DNA of 64,000 nt from Sporocytophaga sp. (GTDB lineage Bacteria > Bacteroidota > Bacteroidia > Cytophagales > Cytophagaceae). The notes below the pieces were generated by a model, which searched no databases, was not told the DNA's origin, and was given only the letters and a program-made list of their open reading frames with translations. A program made the position numbers and the translations under genes. Location: positions 124,001 through 188,000 of the forward strand of contig NZ_JAGHZZ010000006.1 in the NCBI RefSeq assembly GCF_017745095.1, in the 5' to 3' direction. Below are positions 50,904 to 64,000 of this stretch, piece by piece (the stretch's first letter is position 1; each line of letters opens with the position of its first letter).

Positions 50904-52004
50904 CTAAAGTATCCCCTTGGTACTAGGTATCTGATTATTGTTAAAATCTCTGCGCACTGCCATTTTAATGGACTTTGCGAAGGCTTTGAATATAGCTTCT
51001 ATTTTATGATGCTCGTTATCTCCTTCAACTTTAATGTTGATGTTGGCTTTGGAAGTATCAGAGAAAGATTTGAAGAAATGGTAGAACATTTCAGTTGGCA
51101 TATCTCCGATTTTTTCTCTTTTAAATGAAGCATCCCAAACCAACCAGTTTCTTCCTGAAAAATCGATTGCAACTTGCGCCAGCACATCATCCATGGGCAA
51201 TAAAAAGCCATAACGTTCTATCCCTCTTTTATCTCCCAATGCTTTAAGGTAAGCTTCACCTAAAGCAAGAGCAGTATCTTCAATGGTATGATGTTCGTCA
51301 ATATGCAGGTCGCCGGCCACCTTTACTTTAAGATCTGCGCCGGAATGTTTACCAAGCTGATCCAGCATATGGTCAAAGAAACCAAGCCCTGTATGAATTT
51401 CAGTTTTTCCTGTTCCGTCAAGGTTCAGAAAAATCTCTATATCTGTCTCTTTAGTTGTCCTTCTGATGCTGGCTGTTCTGCTATTCTGTTTTTTCAGAAA
51501 CCAATAAATTTCATCCCAATTATCTGTACTTAAAACAGCCTCATCATTTGTATTTGAAGAAAAATAAATAGCCTTTGTACCCAGATTTTTCGCTAGTTGT
51601 ATATCTGTTTGCCTGTCGCCTATTACAAAGGATTCTGATAGATCATAACCTTCTCCAAAATACTCTGTAAGCATCGCGATGCCAGGCTTCCTTGTCGGAA
51701 GATTTTCATGGTCGAAAGACTTGTCTATATGCACTGCATGAAATGCAACACCTTCCCCTTCCAGTGTTTTAACCATTTTATCCTGAGCAGGCCAAAAGGT
51801 GTTCTCAGGAAAAGAAGACGTACCTAGCCCATCCTGATTGGTAACCATAACAAGTAAGTAATCCATCTCGTTGGCGATTCTTGCAAGGCTTGTAATTGCC
51901 TTCGGTAAGAATTCAAGCTTTTCGAGGGAATCAACCTGTTTATCTACGGGTGGTTCAACGATAATAGTTCCGTCTCTATCTATGAATAAAATCTTCTTCT
52001 TCAT
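50904..52004 (-). CDS. hisB: bifunctional histidinol-phosphatase / imidazoleglycerol-phosphate dehydratase HisB
   Basis: Two-domain 366-residue enzyme for steps 7 and 9 (or 6 and 8 by other numbering) of histidine synthesis. The N-terminal HAD phosphatase (residues 1-165) has the nucleophile motif [13 protein letters not shown] and the second motif [19 protein letters not shown]. The C-terminal IGPD (about 170-366) has [20 protein letters not shown] and [18 protein letters not shown], plus the later [13 protein letters not shown], the usual His/Glu manganese ligands. The fused form is typical of enterobacteria and many Bacteroidota. It starts 24 bases after the hisC stop. Confidence 0.95.
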
Positions 52005-52028
52005 TTTAAACTAATGCTCTCTCTTTAA

Positions 52029-53078
52029 TTATCCCTTCCACTCTGAAAGCTTCTTAATCAAAGCTTCATTTTCCTTTTCGGTACCAACAGAAATTCTGAT
52101 GCTGTCTTCACACAACCTCACTTTAGATCTGTCTCTTGTGATGATTTTATTACCGATTAAAAATTCAAAAATCTTTGGAGCTTTATCCATTTTCACCAGC
52201 AAGAAATTGGCATCTGAAGGATACACTTTTGATACAAAAGGAAGTTTATTCAATTCCTCACCAAGCTTCTCACGCTGTTCAAGGATCTGTGCTACCATTT
52301 TTTCCTTGTTCAGAATATTCATTAACCCCACTTTCACAAATTGCTGAGTAGCAATGTTGATGTTATAAGGATATTTGATTTTATTGTAAACACTGATGAT
52401 CTCCTTTGAAGCGAATGCCATACCTAATCTTAGGCCAGCCATTCCCCAGGCTTTGGAGAGCGTCTGAAGAACTATAAGATTTGGATACTGATCAAGTTCA
52501 CTGAGCATAGATGTAGAGGGTGCAAAATCTATATATGCTTCATCTACCACTACAATTCCATTAAACCCTTTTAGAATTTTCTCCACATCCTTTTTATTCA
52601 TGATGTTTCCGGTCGGATTATTCGGTGAGCAAATGAAAATAATTTTAGTATTCTCATCTACTGCGTTAAGAATTTCTTCTGTTCTTAGCTGATAGTCTTC
52701 AGTAAGAGGTACCTGCCTGATTTCCACATCAGAAATAGCAGCAGATACTTCATACATACCATAAGTCGGAGGTAATATGATGATATTGTCTTTCCCTGGG
52801 CGGCAAACCATTCTGATAATGAGATCAATCGGTTCATCGCTGCCATTTCCAAGGAAAATCTTTTCAGGTTCTACCCTTTTAATTTTAGAAAGAATCTCTT
52901 TTATTTCCCATTGGAGAGGATCAGGGTATCTGTTGAAATCGCCTGCAGCAGCAGATCCGTAAGGATTTTCATTTGCATCTAGGAATATTCCTTCTTTTCC
53001 TTTGTATTCGTCTCTGGCAGAGGAATATGGTTTGGCGTTCTTTATGTTCTCCCTAAGGAGTTTATCTAAGCTGAACAA
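52029..53078 (-). CDS. hisC: histidinol-phosphate aminotransferase HisC
   Basis: PLP aminotransferase of 349 residues (fold type I, class II). Conserved segments are LDANENPYGS (about 32-41), YPDPLQWEIKEIL, FICSPNNPTGNIMNKKDVEK and the Schiff-base Lys in LQTLSKAWGMAGLRLGMAFA (about 218-237). VVVDEAYIDFA and the late RISVGTEKENEALIKKL also fit. It is the first gene of this his run; no hisG or hisD lies upstream, where a divergent ACT-like gene stands instead (233 bases away). The operon promoter should lie in that region, but I saw no clean consensus. Confidence 0.94.
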   Translation of the reverse strand: MFSLDKLLRENIKNAKPYSSARDEYKGKEGIFLDANENPYGSAAAGDFNRYPDPLQWEIKEILSKIKRVEPEKIFLGNGSDEPIDLIIRMVCRPGKDNIIILPPTYGMYEVSAAISDVEIRQVPLTEDYQLRTEEILNAVDENTKIIFICSPNNPTGNIMNKKDVEKILKGFNGIVVVDEAYIDFAPSTSMLSELDQYPNLIVLQTLSKAWGMAGLRLGMAFASKEIISVYNKIKYPYNINIATQQFVKVGLMNILNKEKMVAQILEQREKLGEELNKLPFVSKVYPSDANFLLVKMDKAPKIFEFLIGNKIITRDRSKVRLCEDSIRISVGTEKENEALIKKLSEWKG

Positions 53079-53310
53079 TGTAGTACTAAATTTATTAAGA
53101 GTTGCAAATTAGCTTTTTATTTAATAAGAATTTGTAATTTTTATAAGATTTTTCACCCTGTGACAACAAATTTCCAGCCTCTAAAATTGCACATTCCCTC
53201 AGCTATAATTTGTCGTTGACCGGATTACTTAATATCTTTACTTTTAATTAAAATGTGATTTAGGAACTTTTGAGACCTAATCAGAATTATACAAACCTAA
53301 CACACTACTG

Positions 53311-58227: not shown

Positions 58228-59613
58228 TTATCCGTGGTGTGAATTGCTGGCATATTGGACTATTTTCCTGATGATTGAATCCAACTCTTCTGTCATTTCA
58301 AAAAGATAATCTAGAGACATCTCTTTCTCAAAGTCTTTGAGATCCTCTTTTTTTAAAGTATTAACTAACCCTAATATATTTGCAACCGGTCGACGTACTT
58401 CATGAGATTGCTGCCATGCAATTGTTTCCAATCTCCTTAGTTGATTGAGATTTTTTTGCTCTGCCCTAATCCTGTCTGTTACATTCTGAATGATTAACAA
58501 AATAAAATCCTCATTTTTTATCTGAACAATATTGAAATTTACTTCAGCAATCATTTCTTTCCTTCCCCTTTTAAGAGCTGTTGTAAGCCTCTTAGTTCTT
58601 AATCCATATGAAGAAGGTCTCTCTATGTATTGTTTTAAATTTTGAAGATGAAGAGCTCTAAAACGCTCAGGAACTAGTATTTCAACACTCTTTTCCTCCA
58701 ATTCTTCGGGAGAGTAATCAAAAACTTCCTCTGTAGCATAATTGGCAATTCTTATTTTTAAATCTTTATCCAAAATCAAAATTGCCAGAGGTACTGATTC
58801 CAATATCTTTCTGAACTTCTCTTCACTTTCGGCCATTGCAATCTCTGCTTGCTTTCTTTCCGTAATATCAATTGTAAAAAGAGACACTCCCAATAGTTCT
58901 CCACTACGTCTGTATACCGGAAACATTTTTGAAAGCACCCAAAGATCTATATTATATTCCTCATTTAAATCACGTTCTGCGCCACTCCTATATCCTTTAA
59001 GAGCCTTTTCGAAGGCTACCAAAAAACTATTTATATTAGATTCATTTAAGTAATCCTTAAAGTCTGCTCCTATGCAAATTTCCTTACCTGTATAAAAATA
59101 TAGTCTATCTTTTGCTGTTTTATTAAACATTAAGATCTTGTGTTCTCTATCAAACAGCAATATAGATTCGCTTGCATTTTCTACAATTGCCTCAAACATT
59201 TCTGCCAGGTTTTCGATCTCCATCTGCATTCGCTTTTCCTTATCGATGTTTTTGGCAGTAAGAGTAATTCCTAAAAGTATCCCTGCCTGGCTGTAAACTG
59301 GATTCATTTTAAATTCAAACCAGAATGAATTATTTTCTGCTGTAGTTTGATGTACTACTATCTCATTCGTTCCCATAATTGACCTTTTGAAAGTAGTTTG
59401 ATATAATTCCTGTGATCCAGGTGCTACAAAATCTCTAAAGTCGTCTCCCTCCTTTATTTCTCTATTAAAAAATAATTTTAAAATCTCTTTAATGACCTTA
59501 TTAAAAGCTAATACTTTATGCTCAGGAGAAATCAAGACTATACTCTCAGGAGAATTATCCAGAATTGCTTTTAAAATTTCAAAGGTTTCTATCGATTGTT
59601 CTTGACCTTCCAT
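58228..59613 (-). CDS. triple-PAS signalling protein ending in a histidine-kinase dimerisation domain, no ATPase
   Basis: A 461-residue cytoplasmic protein. Three PAS domains follow each other (about 10-125, 135-260 and 265-385): PESIVLISPEHKVLAFNKVI, ESILLFDREHKILMFNKTA and LAILILDKDLKIRIANYATE each start one. The next helix has QQSHEVRRPVANILGLVNTL, a HisKA-type H-box (H about 401) with the conserved proline. The protein stops about 60 residues later (YASNSHHG) with no N, G1 or G2 box. No ATPase domain lies in the 89 bases downstream. It could dimerise with, or be phosphorylated by, another kinase. Such truncated forms are known in Bacteroidota, but this one's partner is unknown. Confidence 0.85.
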   Translation of the reverse strand: MEGQEQSIETFEILKAILDNSPESIVLISPEHKVLAFNKVIKEILKLFFNREIKEGDDFRDFVAPGSQELYQTTFKRSIMGTNEIVVHQTTAENNSFWFEFKMNPVYSQAGILLGITLTAKNIDKEKRMQMEIENLAEMFEAIVENASESILLFDREHKILMFNKTAKDRLYFYTGKEICIGADFKDYLNESNINSFLVAFEKALKGYRSGAERDLNEEYNIDLWVLSKMFPVYRRSGELLGVSLFTIDITERKQAEIAMAESEEKFRKILESVPLAILILDKDLKIRIANYATEEVFDYSPEELEEKSVEILVPERFRALHLQNLKQYIERPSSYGLRTKRLTTALKRGRKEMIAEVNFNIVQIKNEDFILLIIQNVTDRIRAEQKNLNQLRRLETIAWQQSHEVRRPVANILGLVNTLKKEDLKDFEKEMSLDYLFEMTEELDSIIRKIVQYASNSHHG

Positions 59614-59967
59614 TTTGCTTTATTTAAAGCACCATTACATCCATTATCATTTAGCAATACTACCCTCTTCAGCATTCAAGCGTGATAAAATTAATTACCT
59701 AAAAATAACTATATAATACTAACCTTGACCATTGGTTAATGTTAGGAAAAAGCCTCTAATCCCTTTTAGCTCGTACATAAATTTTAGTCAATTTGATTAG
59801 ACGTCTTATCCTTCTAAAGGAATTTACTTGTCACATTTTTGATTCAAATATATTCCTTTAGCAACAACTATTTTTTAAGTAAATGATATGCAGGCAAAAA
59901 CAATCAAAAAGAGGGCTTGAAAGTATTCTTTTCATTTGCTTATATTTGATTTGACAAAATCATTTTT
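59614..59967. other. intergenic region upstream of the first globin
   Basis: A 354-base AT-rich stretch that must carry the divergent promoters of the PAS protein (leftward) and globin 1 (rightward). One good promoter lies at its right end (next entry). It also contains TTTGATTCAAA at about 59839-59849, a short palindrome. Otherwise I see nothing coding. Confidence 0.5.
59917..59948 (+). promoter_or_regulatory. promoter of globin 1
   Basis: TATATTTG (59941-59948) is an exact TAnnTTTG -7 element. TTG (59917-59919) lies 21 bases upstream, in the usual range for the Bacteroidota -33 box. Transcription would start near 59955, leaving a leader of about 13 bases before the ATG at 59968. Confidence 0.55.
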
Positions 59968-60375
59968 ATGAATTCAAATCAGATTAGTTTAATTAAGTCA
60001 ACCTGGGGAGAGGTAATATCATCAGGAGATTCAGTAGGTCAGTCTTTTTATACGATTCTTTTTGAAAAAGACCCTGGTCTAAAAAAATACTTTACCACTG
60101 ATCCAATTGAACAAGCAAGAAAATTCACATCAATGATTACATTTTTTGCTTTCAAACTTGACAATCTTGAATATGTAATATCAGAAGCCAGGGAACTTGG
60201 GAGGAGGCATAAATTTTATAAAACCCCTGAAAGTGCTTATAAAACTGTTCAGAATGCCTTGATTGCCGCACTGGCTGAAAATCTAAGAGATAAGTGGGAT
60301 GCTGAAACTGAGCAGGCCTGGAATCAACTATATCTGACATTGCAAAGCGCAATGCTTGAAGGTGCTCTGGTATAA
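59968..60375 (+). CDS. single-domain globin 1
   Basis: Haem protein of 135 residues, a flavohaemoglobin-like single-domain globin without reductase. The proximal His is H81 (ARELGRRHKFYK), CD1 Phe is F42 (LKKYFTTDPIEQ) and E7 is probably Q49 by alignment with Vitreoscilla globin (IEQ for LEQ). Trp13 and the A-helix (LIKSTWGEV) are typical. It binds O2 or NO and could detoxify NO or store oxygen; the exact role is inferred. The stop at 60375 meets the end of the XRE gene (60376) back to back. A second globin lies 650 bases further on. Confidence 0.9.
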   Translation: MNSNQISLIKSTWGEVISSGDSVGQSFYTILFEKDPGLKKYFTTDPIEQARKFTSMITFFAFKLDNLEYVISEARELGRRHKFYKTPESAYKTVQNALIAALAENLRDKWDAETEQAWNQLYLTLQSAMLEGALV

Positions 60376-60819
60376 TTATTTTCTATTTAAAGACTGGATA
60401 TGGGAGAGATAACTTTTCTCTTTCTCTCTCAAATGTTTTATTATTGTTTCTGAAAGCTCCTGCTGGGTTTTGTATTTGCTTTCCATCAACTGCTTTTCTT
60501 CCTCCCTCATACTAACAATCTTTTTCAGATACTCTATCTCTTTTTTAGCAGATTCCAACTCATCCTTCAATAAAGCTAACTCATTAATACTAATATCTTC
60601 ATTGAATTCTATTGAATTGGCAGTTCCGGGAATTTTATAATAAGTGAAAAAATCATGCCCCAGCACCTCCGAAATTTTGTATAAAAGATCCGTATCCAGG
60701 GATTCTCTCTCAAAAATTCTGTATACATTTTGCCGTACAGTTCCTATCTGATCTGCAAAATCGGTAAGTTTTATACCTTTTTCTTCAAATACGGCCTTAA
60801 TACGTTCCCCAAGCTTCAT
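60376..60819 (-). CDS. XRE-family HTH regulator with coiled coil
   Basis: A 147-residue protein. Residues about 5-60 are a Cro/C1-type helix-turn-helix (LGERIKAVFEEKGIKLTDFA, DQIGTVRQNVYRIFERES, then DTDLLYKISEVLGHDFF). Residues about 80-145 form a heptad-like charged coiled coil (LKDELESAKKEIEYLKKIVS, MREEEKQLMESKYKTQQEL), suited to dimerisation. It lies convergent with globin 1 (stops abut at 60375/60376) and divergent from globin 2, whose promoter region of about 200 bases holds an FNR-like palindrome and TGTTACA/TGTAACA boxes. A role in controlling one or both globins is a natural guess but is not shown. Confidence 0.85.
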   Translation of the reverse strand: MKLGERIKAVFEEKGIKLTDFADQIGTVRQNVYRIFERESLDTDLLYKISEVLGHDFFTYYKIPGTANSIEFNEDISINELALLKDELESAKKEIEYLKKIVSMREEEKQLMESKYKTQQELSETIIKHLREKEKSYLSHIQSLNRK

Positions 60820-60915
60820 ATACTCAAATATACATTTTTTGAAACAGAATAGTTACACATTGTGAATTAAAATTTACTGTGGACAACTTTTTGTAATATT
60901 TTTTTTACTAAAATT

Positions 60916-60929
60916 TTGATTTTAATCAT
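60916..60929 (+). promoter_or_regulatory. FNR/CRP-type palindrome upstream of globin 2
   Basis: TTGAT-TTTA-ATCAT (60916-60929) matches the FNR consensus TTGAT-N4-ATCAA in nine of ten defined positions. It lies 97 bases before the globin 2 ATG and 97 bases before the XRE start on the other strand. FNR-family regulators (DNR, HcpR, FNR) respond to oxygen or NO, fitting a globin gene. Confidence 0.5.
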
Positions 60930-60932
60930 TTT

Positions 60933-60950
60933 TGTTACACTTTTGTAACA
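60933..60950. promoter_or_regulatory. TGTTACA-N4-TGTAACA inverted repeat
   Basis: A perfect 7-bp inverted repeat with CTTT spacer stands 76 bases before globin 2. Half-site copies recur nearby: GTTACA at 60852, GTAACA at 60988 and TGTAACA at 61006. Five boxes in about 160 bases suggest an operator, perhaps for the divergent XRE protein. Confidence 0.5.
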
Positions 60951-61025
60951 CAATACGACAATAGCATTGATTTTTGTCATTCAATCAGTAACAAAACATC
61001 AACACTGTAACAAAATATTAACAAC

Positions 61026-61451
61026 ATGATTAACAATATTCAAATATCCCTGGTAAAGAAAAGTTGGGAATCTGCATATAAAATTCAAGATGTGGCAGGT
61101 CCGCTTTTCTATAATCGCCTTTTCGAAATCGCTCCAGAAGTTCGACGCATGTTTGCTCATACCAATGTACAAGAGCAATCCAAAAAACTATTCCAAATGC
61201 TCAATTATATCATCCGAAAAATAGATGACCTGGATGTACTTATTGATGAAGTAGCTGCACTAGCAGGAAGACACGTGAAATATGGAGTAAAAGAACACCA
61301 CTATCAAATTGTAGGAGAAGCTCTTCTATGGACACTTGAGAAAGGTCTGGGGGACCTATGGACATCTGAGACTAAAGATTCATGGATAAAAACTTATGCT
61401 ATCCTTTCTTCAGCAATGATTGGCGCAAGCAAAATACTACAGGAAAAATAA
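61026..61451 (+). CDS. single-domain globin 2
   Basis: A 141-residue globin, related to but distinct from globin 1. Its A-helix is LVKKSWESAYK (Trp14), CD1 Phe is F43 (VRRMFAHTNVQEQ), E7 is Q51 and the proximal His is H83 (AALAGRHVKYGV). HYQIVGEALLWTLEKGLGD is the G-helix and matches flavohaemoglobin (HYPIVGxxLLxAIKxVLGD) more closely than globin 1 does. It probably reacts with NO or oxygen. It has a complex promoter region shared with the XRE gene. The next gene, a secreted hydrolase, is 155 bases away on the same strand. Confidence 0.92.
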   Translation: MINNIQISLVKKSWESAYKIQDVAGPLFYNRLFEIAPEVRRMFAHTNVQEQSKKLFQMLNYIIRKIDDLDVLIDEVAALAGRHVKYGVKEHHYQIVGEALLWTLEKGLGDLWTSETKDSWIKTYAILSSAMIGASKILQEK

Positions 61452-61606
61452 CAAAGAATCCTTTAAAAACAAGAGAGCATGGAAGCAAATAATAGCCCTT
61501 GATCAATAGTGTTCGATAAAGCATTAACCGTCCTGCTAAGCAGGTGAATTCAAATTAATTTTTAACAACTAAAAACATAACCAAAGCAAAAACATAAAAT
61601 TTTACT

Positions 61607-63784
61607 ATGAAAACATCATACAATTTTTCAAAACTTTTAGCTAAAGCAGGTGTAGCTTTAACACTTGTACCAGGAGTGGTATCAGCACAGGCATGGATTT
61701 CAAAACATGGAATGAGTCCGGCAGAATATCAATCAGCTTTCACCACCAACACAGGAAATGGATACAGACTTACACAAGTAGAGGGTTATACTTCAAATGG
61801 TGCTGAACAATATATAGCATTATGGGAAAAAGTCTCAGGGGGAACTTATGTAACACAGCATTCAATGACTGCATCGGAATTTCAGACAGCCTTTAATACT
61901 TATACTGCACAGGGTTATCGTCTTACTAAAATATCCGGCTATACAGTAAACAATGTTCCTCAGTTTGCTGCAATATGGGAAATAAAATCAGGCGGTGCCT
62001 GGGTAGCAAAGCACAATATGACAGCATCGGAATACCAAACAAATTTTAACACATATACAGCTCAGGGGTATCGCCTCAAAGATATTAGCGGATATGTTGT
62101 AAACGGAACAGAATACTTTGCTGCTATATGGGAAGTGGCCAGCGGTGGCGCTTGGTTAGCTCAACATAACCTTACAGCTGCTCAATACCAAAGCTCATTT
62201 AATACTTATACATCTCAGGGATACTTTTTAAAAGACATCACCGGATACAACAAAAATGGAGTTGATCTTTATGCAGCAGTATGGGAAAAAGTCTCTTCTC
62301 CTCTTTGGGGAGCAAGACATGGAATCAGTTCTTTGAATTATCAAAATGCTTTTGATAACTACTACTATCAAGGCTACAGGCCTAAATACTTAAATGCATT
62401 TGCTTCCGGATCCAGTGCTAAATTCAATTGCGTATGGACCAACTCTAGCTGGTCAGGAACCGAAATAGCTAAAATTGACAACGCTGTAAACGGATACATG
62501 AGCAGCCAGAGCGTAACAGGTTTATCTTTAGCTATCGCTAAAGACGGAAGACTGGTATTTGCAAAAGGATATGGAACCGCCAACAATTCCACAGGAGAAG
62601 AACTTGCTCCAAACCACAGCATGCGTATCATGAGTATATCGAAATCAGTAACCTCTGTCGGAATCATGACTTTGATACAAAAAGGACTGATGTCAAAAGA
62701 TGATGCAGTGTTTGGACCTGGAAGCATTCTTGGATCAAAATACGCTACTCCTGCAGGCAAAGAAAAACTTAACAACATAAGAGTAAGACATTTATTATGG
62801 CATACTTCCGGATTGAAACAATGCAATGGAGAAAGTGTTTTCTGGGATGCTAACAAGACACCTGATGATGCGATGGCAGTGCTTTTAGGAGAATCGAATC
62901 TAATTGTATATGATACAAGTGAACATTACCTATACTCCAACACTAACTTCTTCATTCTTGAAAGAATCATTGAACAAGTAAGCAAACAAAAATACGAAAC
63001 GTATATAAGACAAAATGTTCTTGACAAATGCGGAATCGGATCAAGCATGTTTGTTGGTCAATCTAATGGTAACCCAGTTGCTGGTGAGGCTTCTTATTCT
63101 CCGCTTACTAAAATGAACCTGCAGCTTTGGGGAGCATTTGGTGGCTGGGTAGCTCGTCCAAAAGATTTACTGAAATTGTTAAACAGAGTCGATGGTACTG
63201 CATCTCCTTCAGATATTTTATCTACCACCACACATAACACGATGACAACTATTTCCGGAGTGGATAATCAATCTTATGGATTTGGCTGGATAATAAATGG
63301 TAGCATGCAAGCACACAATGGCTGCCATGGCTCTACTAGATCATTCCTGGTTGAATTAGGTAATGGAGTAAGCTATTCCGTAATCATTAATAACACTCCT
63401 GTAAACGACGATTGCTCATGGGTTCTCAGAGGTGCGATGGATGCCGGCATAAGTACGATTGCATCATACCCTTCTATAAATTTATTTGACAATACCGGCT
63501 CGGGTACACGTGAATATGCAGTAACTTCCGCAGATCAAGGTTTCGATGCAACAATGAATGTGTCTTCTGTGAACAAAGTTGTTGCTTACCCGACATTGAG
63601 TTCAGACGGAATCATCAACTTTAACAATGCTTCCGATATCAAATCAATCATTGTAACCGATGTTCTGGGTAACAGAGAATCTCACAAGGCAGGCGATAAG
63701 ATTCAAACTCAATTGAAAGGCTTATTGATCCTCCACGTTGAGACAGAGCAAGGTAAAGAAACACAAAAAGTAATTGTTGAATAG
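61607..63784 (+). CDS. secreted serine hydrolase, class C beta-lactamase fold with five BTRD1-like repeats and T9SS sorting domain
   Basis: A 725-residue exported protein: signal peptide to about A27 (ALTLVPGVVSAQ). Residues 29-281 are five 51-residue repeats (BTRD1-type), each with AW...H...SxxxYQxxFxxYxxxGYR....GY....xxxxAxxWE, seen as AWVAKHNMTASEYQTNFNTY (131-150). The serine-hydrolase domain (about 285-620) has SxxK as S343-I-S-K346 (RIMSISKSVTSVGIM), YxN as Y443-S-N445 (HYLYSNTNFF) and a third motif HNG at H570 (AHNGCHGSTRS). The last 75 residues are a T9SS sorting domain (VVAYPTLSSDGIINFNN, LLILHVETEQGKETQKVIV). The layout matches polyglycine hydrolase-like S12 peptidases. Glycine-rich or peptidoglycan substrates are both possible. 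Confidence 0.87.
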   Translation: MKTSYNFSKLLAKAGVALTLVPGVVSAQAWISKHGMSPAEYQSAFTTNTGNGYRLTQVEGYTSNGAEQYIALWEKVSGGTYVTQHSMTASEFQTAFNTYTAQGYRLTKISGYTVNNVPQFAAIWEIKSGGAWVAKHNMTASEYQTNFNTYTAQGYRLKDISGYVVNGTEYFAAIWEVASGGAWLAQHNLTAAQYQSSFNTYTSQGYFLKDITGYNKNGVDLYAAVWEKVSSPLWGARHGISSLNYQNAFDNYYYQGYRPKYLNAFASGSSAKFNCVWTNSSWSGTEIAKIDNAVNGYMSSQSVTGLSLAIAKDGRLVFAKGYGTANNSTGEELAPNHSMRIMSISKSVTSVGIMTLIQKGLMSKDDAVFGPGSILGSKYATPAGKEKLNNIRVRHLLWHTSGLKQCNGESVFWDANKTPDDAMAVLLGESNLIVYDTSEHYLYSNTNFFILERIIEQVSKQKYETYIRQNVLDKCGIGSSMFVGQSNGNPVAGEASYSPLTKMNLQLWGAFGGWVARPKDLLKLLNRVDGTASPSDILSTTTHNTMTTISGVDNQSYGFGWIINGSMQAHNGCHGSTRSFLVELGNGVSYSVIINNTPVNDDCSWVLRGAMDAGISTIASYPSINLFDNTGSGTREYAVTSADQGFDATMNVSSVNKVVAYPTLSSDGIINFNNASDIKSIIVTDVLGNRESHKAGDKIQTQLKGLLILHVETEQGKETQKVIVE
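61691..62449 (+). repeat. five tandem 51-codon repeats in the serine hydrolase
   Basis: The repeats cover residues 29-79, 80-130, 131-181, 182-231 and 232-281. Each ends with a Trp-containing strand (ALWEKVSGG, AIWEIKSGG, AIWEVASGG, AVWEKVSS, CVWTNSS). Repeats 2-4 are closest to one another; repeats 1 and 5 are more divergent. The high similarity of neighbours suggests recent internal duplication. Confidence 0.85.
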
Positions 63785-63809
63785 TTTTGAGTTGGTTGAG
63801 TTATTCAGT

Positions 63810-63839
63810 AAAAGGGAAGCCTCAAGCTTCCCTTTTTTT
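63810..63839. terminator. terminator after the serine hydrolase
   Basis: AAAAGGGAAGC (63810-63820) pairs with GCTTCCCTTTT (63826-63836) around CTCAA, followed by more T. It is symmetric enough to also end the minus-strand gene that stops at 63839. Confidence 0.9.
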
Positions 63840-64000
63840 CATTTTATAATTCCATTTAAATCTATTTCGGGATCAGTGCCATTATAGAAATATACTGAGT
63901 CAATACCGTTAGAAATGAAAATTCCCCATTCATTTAAATACTCCGTTGTACTAATAAAATCAGTAGGTTTATCTTTTAATGGGAACTGAAGAATCTTAGA
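63839..64000 (-). CDS. 3' end of a gene on the minus strand, function unknown
   Basis: Reading the minus strand from the window edge gives 53 uninterrupted codons ending in TGA at 63839-63841. The visible C-terminus has FPLKDKPTDFIST, EYLNEWGIFISNGIDSVYF and YNGTDPEIDLNGIIK. The composition looks coding, and it stops at a terminator hairpin that also serves the opposing gene. The start lies outside the window, and I recognise no domain. Confidence 0.55.
   Translation of the reverse strand, partial: SKILQFPLKDKPTDFISTTEYLNEWGIFISNGIDSVYFYNGTDPEIDLNGIIK

Follow-up and report, generated by a model that had tools for sequence, protein, structure and literature searches.

A rare, conserved cassette of two divergent globins, an XRE-type regulator and a hydrolase in Sporocytophaga

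Introduction

Why would a cell keep two divergent single-domain globins, and could the small XRE-type regulator encoded between them be what governs them? The question is raised by a locus in a Sporocytophaga genome (G000), found in the 64-kb stretch of DNA that was analyzed and is referred to here as the window. A sequence-only reading of this DNA had taken the globin-XRE-globin arrangement for a tightly packed, co-evolved oxygen or NO response unit. Most regulators known for bacterial globins belong to the CRP/FNR, NsrR or NorR types, a picture that PMC1274295 supports in part. A search of open-licence papers for a globin associated with an XRE or HTH regulator, and for the DNA motif described below, found none, which does not prove that none exists. 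The comparisons below draw chiefly on three congeners (G016, G017 and G018) and on a Cytophagales MAG from another family (G066).

Results

Three open reading frames were found exactly at the coordinates and on the strands that had been noted: GLB1, a globin of 135 aa (59968..60375, plus strand); an XRE/Cro-C1-type regulator of 147 aa (60376..60819, minus strand); and GLB2, a globin of 141 aa (61026..61451, plus strand). All three are genes under purifying selection, with dN/dS values between G000 and G016 of 0.088 for GLB1, 0.063 for XRE and 0.105 for GLB2. That the globins and XRE form a conserved unit stood up to comparison in so far as the three are kept together in G000, G016 and G066, but the unit also includes a fourth gene, encoding a 725-aa hydrolase with BTRD1 repeats and a beta-lactamase-type domain (61607..63784, plus strand). 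The abutting stop codons of GLB1 and XRE fared less well: they are present in G000 and G016, whereas in G066 the two genes are separated by 310 bp, and hence the tight packing that had been offered as a sign of co-evolution is no evidence of it.

The Bacteroidota -7 promoter consensus is TAnnTTTG, and a candidate element, TATATTTG, lies 5′ of GLB1 (59941..59948, plus strand), aligned in G000, G016 and G066; a second TATATTTG, a few bases 5′ of the ATG of XRE (60825..60832, minus strand), may serve that gene as its -7 element. A terminator-like stem-loop 3′ of the hydrolase gene (63810..63836, plus strand) is a weak feature, as 3 such sites were found against 3.4 expected from shuffles, and the scan found no terminator-like site in the gap between GLB2 and the hydrolase gene, such sites being no commoner than in shuffles. 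The hydrolase itself is probably secreted, to judge from a weak type IX secretion tail that scores just below its cut-off. A second copy of the hydrolase, 69% identical, is located at G000:C61:17106-19283 (L148), with one each in G016, G017 and G018.

The globin-XRE-globin order that the sequence-only reading proposed to look for in related genomes does recur, together with the hydrolase gene, in G016 and G066. Nor are the homologues scattered in close relatives: among the four genus members, the block is complete in 2 and missing in 2. Of 19 genomes of the family, 2 (G000 and G016) combine an adjacent globin pair with a close homologue of XRE. When the 291 genomes sampled from the order were searched with GLB2, 82 had a match of some kind (flavohemoglobins included), and it was this search that showed a globin pair about 1 kb apart in G066. 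The locus there comprises GLB1, XRE on the opposite strand and GLB2, followed by the first part of the hydrolase gene, the remainder of which matches the start of another contig. G066 proteins are 73% (XRE), 62% (GLB1) and 60% (GLB2) identical to those of G000; for comparison, HisD of G066 and G016 share 64% identity. An XRE profile run on the same 291 genomes scored 305 bits in G000, 304 in G016 and 293 in G066, the next score being 107; homologues above 250 bits were thus present in 3 of the 291, always inside this block. Beyond the order, the best score after the own gene among 395 genomes of the class was 82 bits, and among 395 genomes of the phylum nothing besides the own gene was found at E up to 1e-20. 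Two short peptide patterns run against 84,980 species genomes gave 4 loci, with the G066 contig the only full-length relative, in a scan that may miss diverged copies and that excludes the window's own and very near genomes.

Close globin pairs as such are not rare, since they were found in seven more of the genomes fetched (G150, G127, G089, G032, G209, G188 and G046). A further 42 globin loci, amounting to some 35 separate places and picked from the best matches and pairs and not from all 82 genomes, gave no match to the XRE model at E up to 0.1. L062 and L063 have tandem single-domain globins beside what read, from sequence alone, as genes for parts of a cbb3 oxidase.

In G017 and G018 the flanking genes are in place and the block is missing, and the gap of one genome can be aligned with that of the other. 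At the site, both retain the 3′ end of the hydrolase gene in degenerate form, with matches to G000 of 79% over 110 bp and 83% over 167 bp. This relic led us to reject the idea that the block had been inserted in G000 and G016, and indicates deletion from G017 and G018 instead; the common ancestor probably had the block. Next to the cassette lies a gene (58228-59613, minus strand) whose product has several PAS domains and, below cut-off, a HisKA match; it is present in the cassette-less G017 and missing from G018. Around the cassette there are also his genes (window 50907-53108 and G000:C61:190032-191306): what reads from sequence as hisB and hisC is 6-14 kb away from hisD and hisG in each of the four genus members, and in G000 and G016 the cassette occupies the interval.

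A mobile element origin was considered and rejected on phage, plasmid, Rfam and GC evidence. XRE had no match in 50,697 phage records, and the three found among 72,556 plasmid records extend over 37-47% of its length each; no Rfam match was found in 59000-64000; and the GC content of the four cassette genes, 0.34-0.40, is close to the 0.355 of the window.

With its order repeated in a distant relative and all of it lost together in two close ones, the cassette looks like a real, conserved and rare unit. It could be argued that the genes are merely neighbors, kept side by side by inheritance or joint transfer and sharing no function. The block is, after all, confined to three genomes, and its hydrolase has no obvious link to globins and is duplicated elsewhere in the genome. 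Yet order and orientation are identical in two families, the block was lost as such, and dN/dS is low. Because low dN/dS is joined by recurrence in the genome of another family, the order is more than chance, and we regard simple neighborhood as quite unlikely.

Both globins match Pfam Globin over the 22-bit cut-off (E=2e-13 for GLB1, E=6.8e-17 for GLB2) along the span of the protein, and the other listed families stay below their cut-offs. In the alignment, Phe CD1, Gln E7 and the proximal His F8 are present in both, as had been claimed, at F42, Q49 and H81 in GLB1 and, as counted on its own sequence, at F43, Q51 and H83 in GLB2; Tyr B10, Lys E10 and Tyr G5 are likewise in both. Helix names follow comparison with PMC4476040. 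With Globin as their only Pfam family and with His F8, Phe CD1, Tyr B10 and Gln E7 in place, the two classify as single-domain globins of the flavohemoglobin/SDgb lineage. A 3/3 globin fold was predicted for GLB1 only (mean pLDDT 89.1), with 3s1i (HGbI) as the best PDB match at a TM of 0.89.

The nearest solved relatives of both by sequence are HGbRL and HGbI (Hell's gate globin I) of Methylacidiphilum infernorum, with the globin domain of HGbRL nearest to GLB2. Tyr B10, Gln E7, Lys E10 and His F8 are common to all of these proteins (PMC4476040). The Arg B12-Trp G14 pair described there is kept by GLB2 (R31, W102) and lost by GLB1 (I30, A100), consistently in G000, G016 and G066. For both globins the probable ligand is O2 or NO, held in a Tyr B10/Gln E7/Lys E10 haem pocket like that of HGbI and HGbRL. 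Flavohemoglobins, the Hmp-type NO dioxygenases, belong to the same globin family, and NCBIfam PRK13289 matches the globin part, but flavohemoglobins carry a C-terminal FAD/NAD reductase domain that these short proteins do not have. In the whole genome (6.63 Mb, 64 contigs) there are three Pfam Globin matches, namely GLB1, GLB2 and one in a 416-aa frame that is flavohemoglobin-like by its length.

The two globins had been described as clearly different in sequence, and at 35-36% identity they are. In a tree of 44 rows, a fork with support of 99/90 parts GLB1 from GLB2; the GLB1 branch is long (1.58) and could mislead the tree. A recent tandem duplication is not supported by this identity and this fork, with the same caveat on branch length. 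GLB1, on its long branch, is not sister to GLB2, which suggests that the two probably differ in role.

The regulator meets HTH_3 (PF01381) at 27.7 bits (E=2.8e-6, cut-off 23), which places it among proteins with an XRE/Cro-C1 domain. The best of five AlphaFold2 models, with a mean pLDDT of 84.4, has an HTH domain, a disordered linker and a single helix spanning residues 78-146; the alignment behind it held two sequences, the other four models had pLDDT of 55.8-68.4, and the pTM was 0.44. The coiled coil of the sequence-only reading finds backing in this predicted helix. Foldseek matched the model best to CapH, SinR and similar Cro/C1-type HTH proteins at E=0.004 and weaker, with no match at 0.001 or better. 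The HTH fold is common to XRE, SinR and other regulators of this type. The C-terminal part of SinR is short, and XRE has in its place a 69-residue single-helix tail.

How such a protein would receive a signal can be narrowed down. It has no cysteine, and direct sensing of NO through a thiol or an Fe-S center is therefore unlikely. Between G000 and G066, 48 of 62 residues are kept in the HTH domain, 3 of 14 in the linker and 56 of 70 in the long helix. A C-terminal helix conserved as much as the DNA-binding domain suggests that XRE activity may be controlled by protein contact on that helix; in a protein with neither cysteine nor a known ligand domain, the signal would probably come by such contact or through the level of XRE itself.

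One specific form of such contact would make a globin the sensor. GLB1 or GLB2 would hold or free XRE through the helix according to its haem ligand: ligand-driven movement of the Lys E10 region would alter the grip of the globin on the helix, and with it occupancy of the array described below. The globin to which GLB2 is nearest belongs to HGbRL, a putative globin-coupled sensor whose closed form has Lys E10 bound to the haem (PMC4476040), and GLB1 and GLB2 both retain this lysine; the conserved helix and the want of cysteine fit as well. But Lys E10 is also present in 33 of 38 other aligned globins, most with no match to the XRE model nearby, and the helix could equally serve self-assembly of XRE. 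A two-piece gas sensor of this kind strikes us as a long shot. Globin-coupled sensors in the usual sense have globin and output domain in one protein, and here they are separate reading frames on opposite strands; HGbRL is fused to a Roadblock/LC7 domain (PMC4476040), unlike the free-standing GLB1 and GLB2.

The divergent region between XRE and GLB2 (60820..61025, unstranded) is the candidate operator. Its 206 bp contain five GTTAC/GTAAC sites in G000, five in G016 and three in G066, the last at places that match those of the other two. A GTTAC at 60852..60856 and a GTAAC at 61007..61011 (both plus strand) are conserved in position in G016 and G066; an inverted pair, GTTACACTTTTGTAAC, at 60934..60949 (unstranded) is identical in G016 and has two mismatches in G066; and a GTAAC at 60988..60992 (plus strand) is restricted to G000 and G016. 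Shuffles average 0.6-0.7 sites, and the observed count was reached by none of 5000 for G000, none for G016 and 1.5% for G066. When pentamers present 3 or more times in G000 and 2 or more times in G066 are ranked under a simple composition model, it is the most over-represented. Across the 64-kb window, five sites occur in 47 of 63,794 stretches of 206 bp, which is just how many span this array. Neither the spacing nor the orientation of the half-sites in the array is fixed. The uniqueness of the perfect palindrome in the genome was dropped as proof of an operator, a reversed control pattern being equally rare. On these sequence features, 60820-61025 looks like an operator region. In the 354 bp upstream of GLB1, no GTTAC or GTAAC was found, and the notion of a single switch for both globins is accordingly not supported.

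The same pentamer raises the possibility that the globins are governed from elsewhere, by a CRP/FNR-type or other NO or oxygen regulator, with XRE as a linked autoregulator that has no say over them. HcpR2, an NO-linked CRP/FNR regulator that is also found in Bacteroides, has the operator consensus GTAACnnnnGTTAC, which uses this pentamer (PMC1274295), and GLB1 has no GTTAC site upstream. But HcpR2 belongs to another protein family than XRE, a search of the three intergenic regions (G000, G016 and G066) that allowed 2 mismatches found no GTAACnnnnGTTAC, the inverted pair has the opposite polarity to the HcpR2 palindrome, and wherever XRE occurs, in three genomes, the two globins go with it. 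Control from outside seems to us unlikely.

Whether XRE itself is the protein that binds the array can be addressed through its homologues elsewhere. Among 58 homologue rows from other genomes, some of them mutually orthologous, at least 4 sites lie upstream in 3 and at most 2 in the other 55; L124 and L077, close relatives with a nearly identical recognition segment, have one upstream site each. The three site-rich rows (L134, L135 and L137) all came from genus g22, which prompted a test in that genus, where 20 added regions brought the set to 23 of the 32 g22 genomes with an XRE-profile match. Each of the 20 has at least 2 sites, 83 in total. The 23 regions together hold 98, a mean of 4.3 per 230 bp, against 0.17 in a 120-kb background drawn from eight members of the same family, seven of them in g22, where the maximum was 3. 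In AT-richer background (GC under 48%) the figure is about 0.4, with three sites in at most 3 of 388 stretches. The top 7-mer of the 23 regions is TGTAACA/TGTTACA and the top 6-mer GTTACA/TGTAAC, with TGTAA first and GTAAC second among 5-mers, and blastn aligns only 11 of the 253 pairs of regions. These loci (L157-L176, L134, L135 and L137; family f13) have in common a dense, irregular TGTAAC array in an AT-rich stretch 5′ of the XRE homologue. At L134, L135 and L137, some neighbors appear recF- or DUF721-like, a reading made from the letters only.

The correspondence has its limits. TGATACA and other k-mers enriched in the g22 set are missing from the cassette region, where TGTAA is barely enriched (5 against 2.9). 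Six upstream regions outside g22 have 3, 1, 1, 2, 0 and 0 sites, and the link with the motif does not extend to the XRE family at large. The case for tying this XRE to the motif is thus good, though short of proof. Since the array is conserved and the motif enriched in g22, XRE probably binds the array and controls itself and GLB2.

Discussion

The reading we prefer, to which we give a probability of roughly 0.55, is that of a four-gene cassette with two old, divergent globins, in which XRE would bind the GTTAC/GTAAC sites that separate it from GLB2 and from there restrain the promoters of both genes. This control may extend to the hydrolase by read-through from GLB2, and GLB1 would be served by its own promoter-like element, which has no such array. 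XRE would take its signal through protein contact on the conserved helix or from its own level, and the globins would handle a haem ligand, O2 or NO. The explanation is anchored in the observed gene content, order, block loss, selection and motif array; binding, repression, the signal and the haem-ligand function are what we infer. The oxygen or NO response unit of the sequence-only reading did not hold up in its specific form, as none of the findings singles out NO or oxygen as what is sensed, and a possible role of this kind is suggested by the family membership of the globins.

A conserved cassette of two globins and a dedicated XRE regulator offers a small system in which to ask why a cell keeps two divergent globins. 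Confirmation that helix-tailed XRE proteins are linked to TGTAAC arrays would provide a DNA target for a regulator family that is widespread in these bacteria. And were the sensor truly split between globin and regulator, it would constitute a haem-globin transcription switch built from separate genes.
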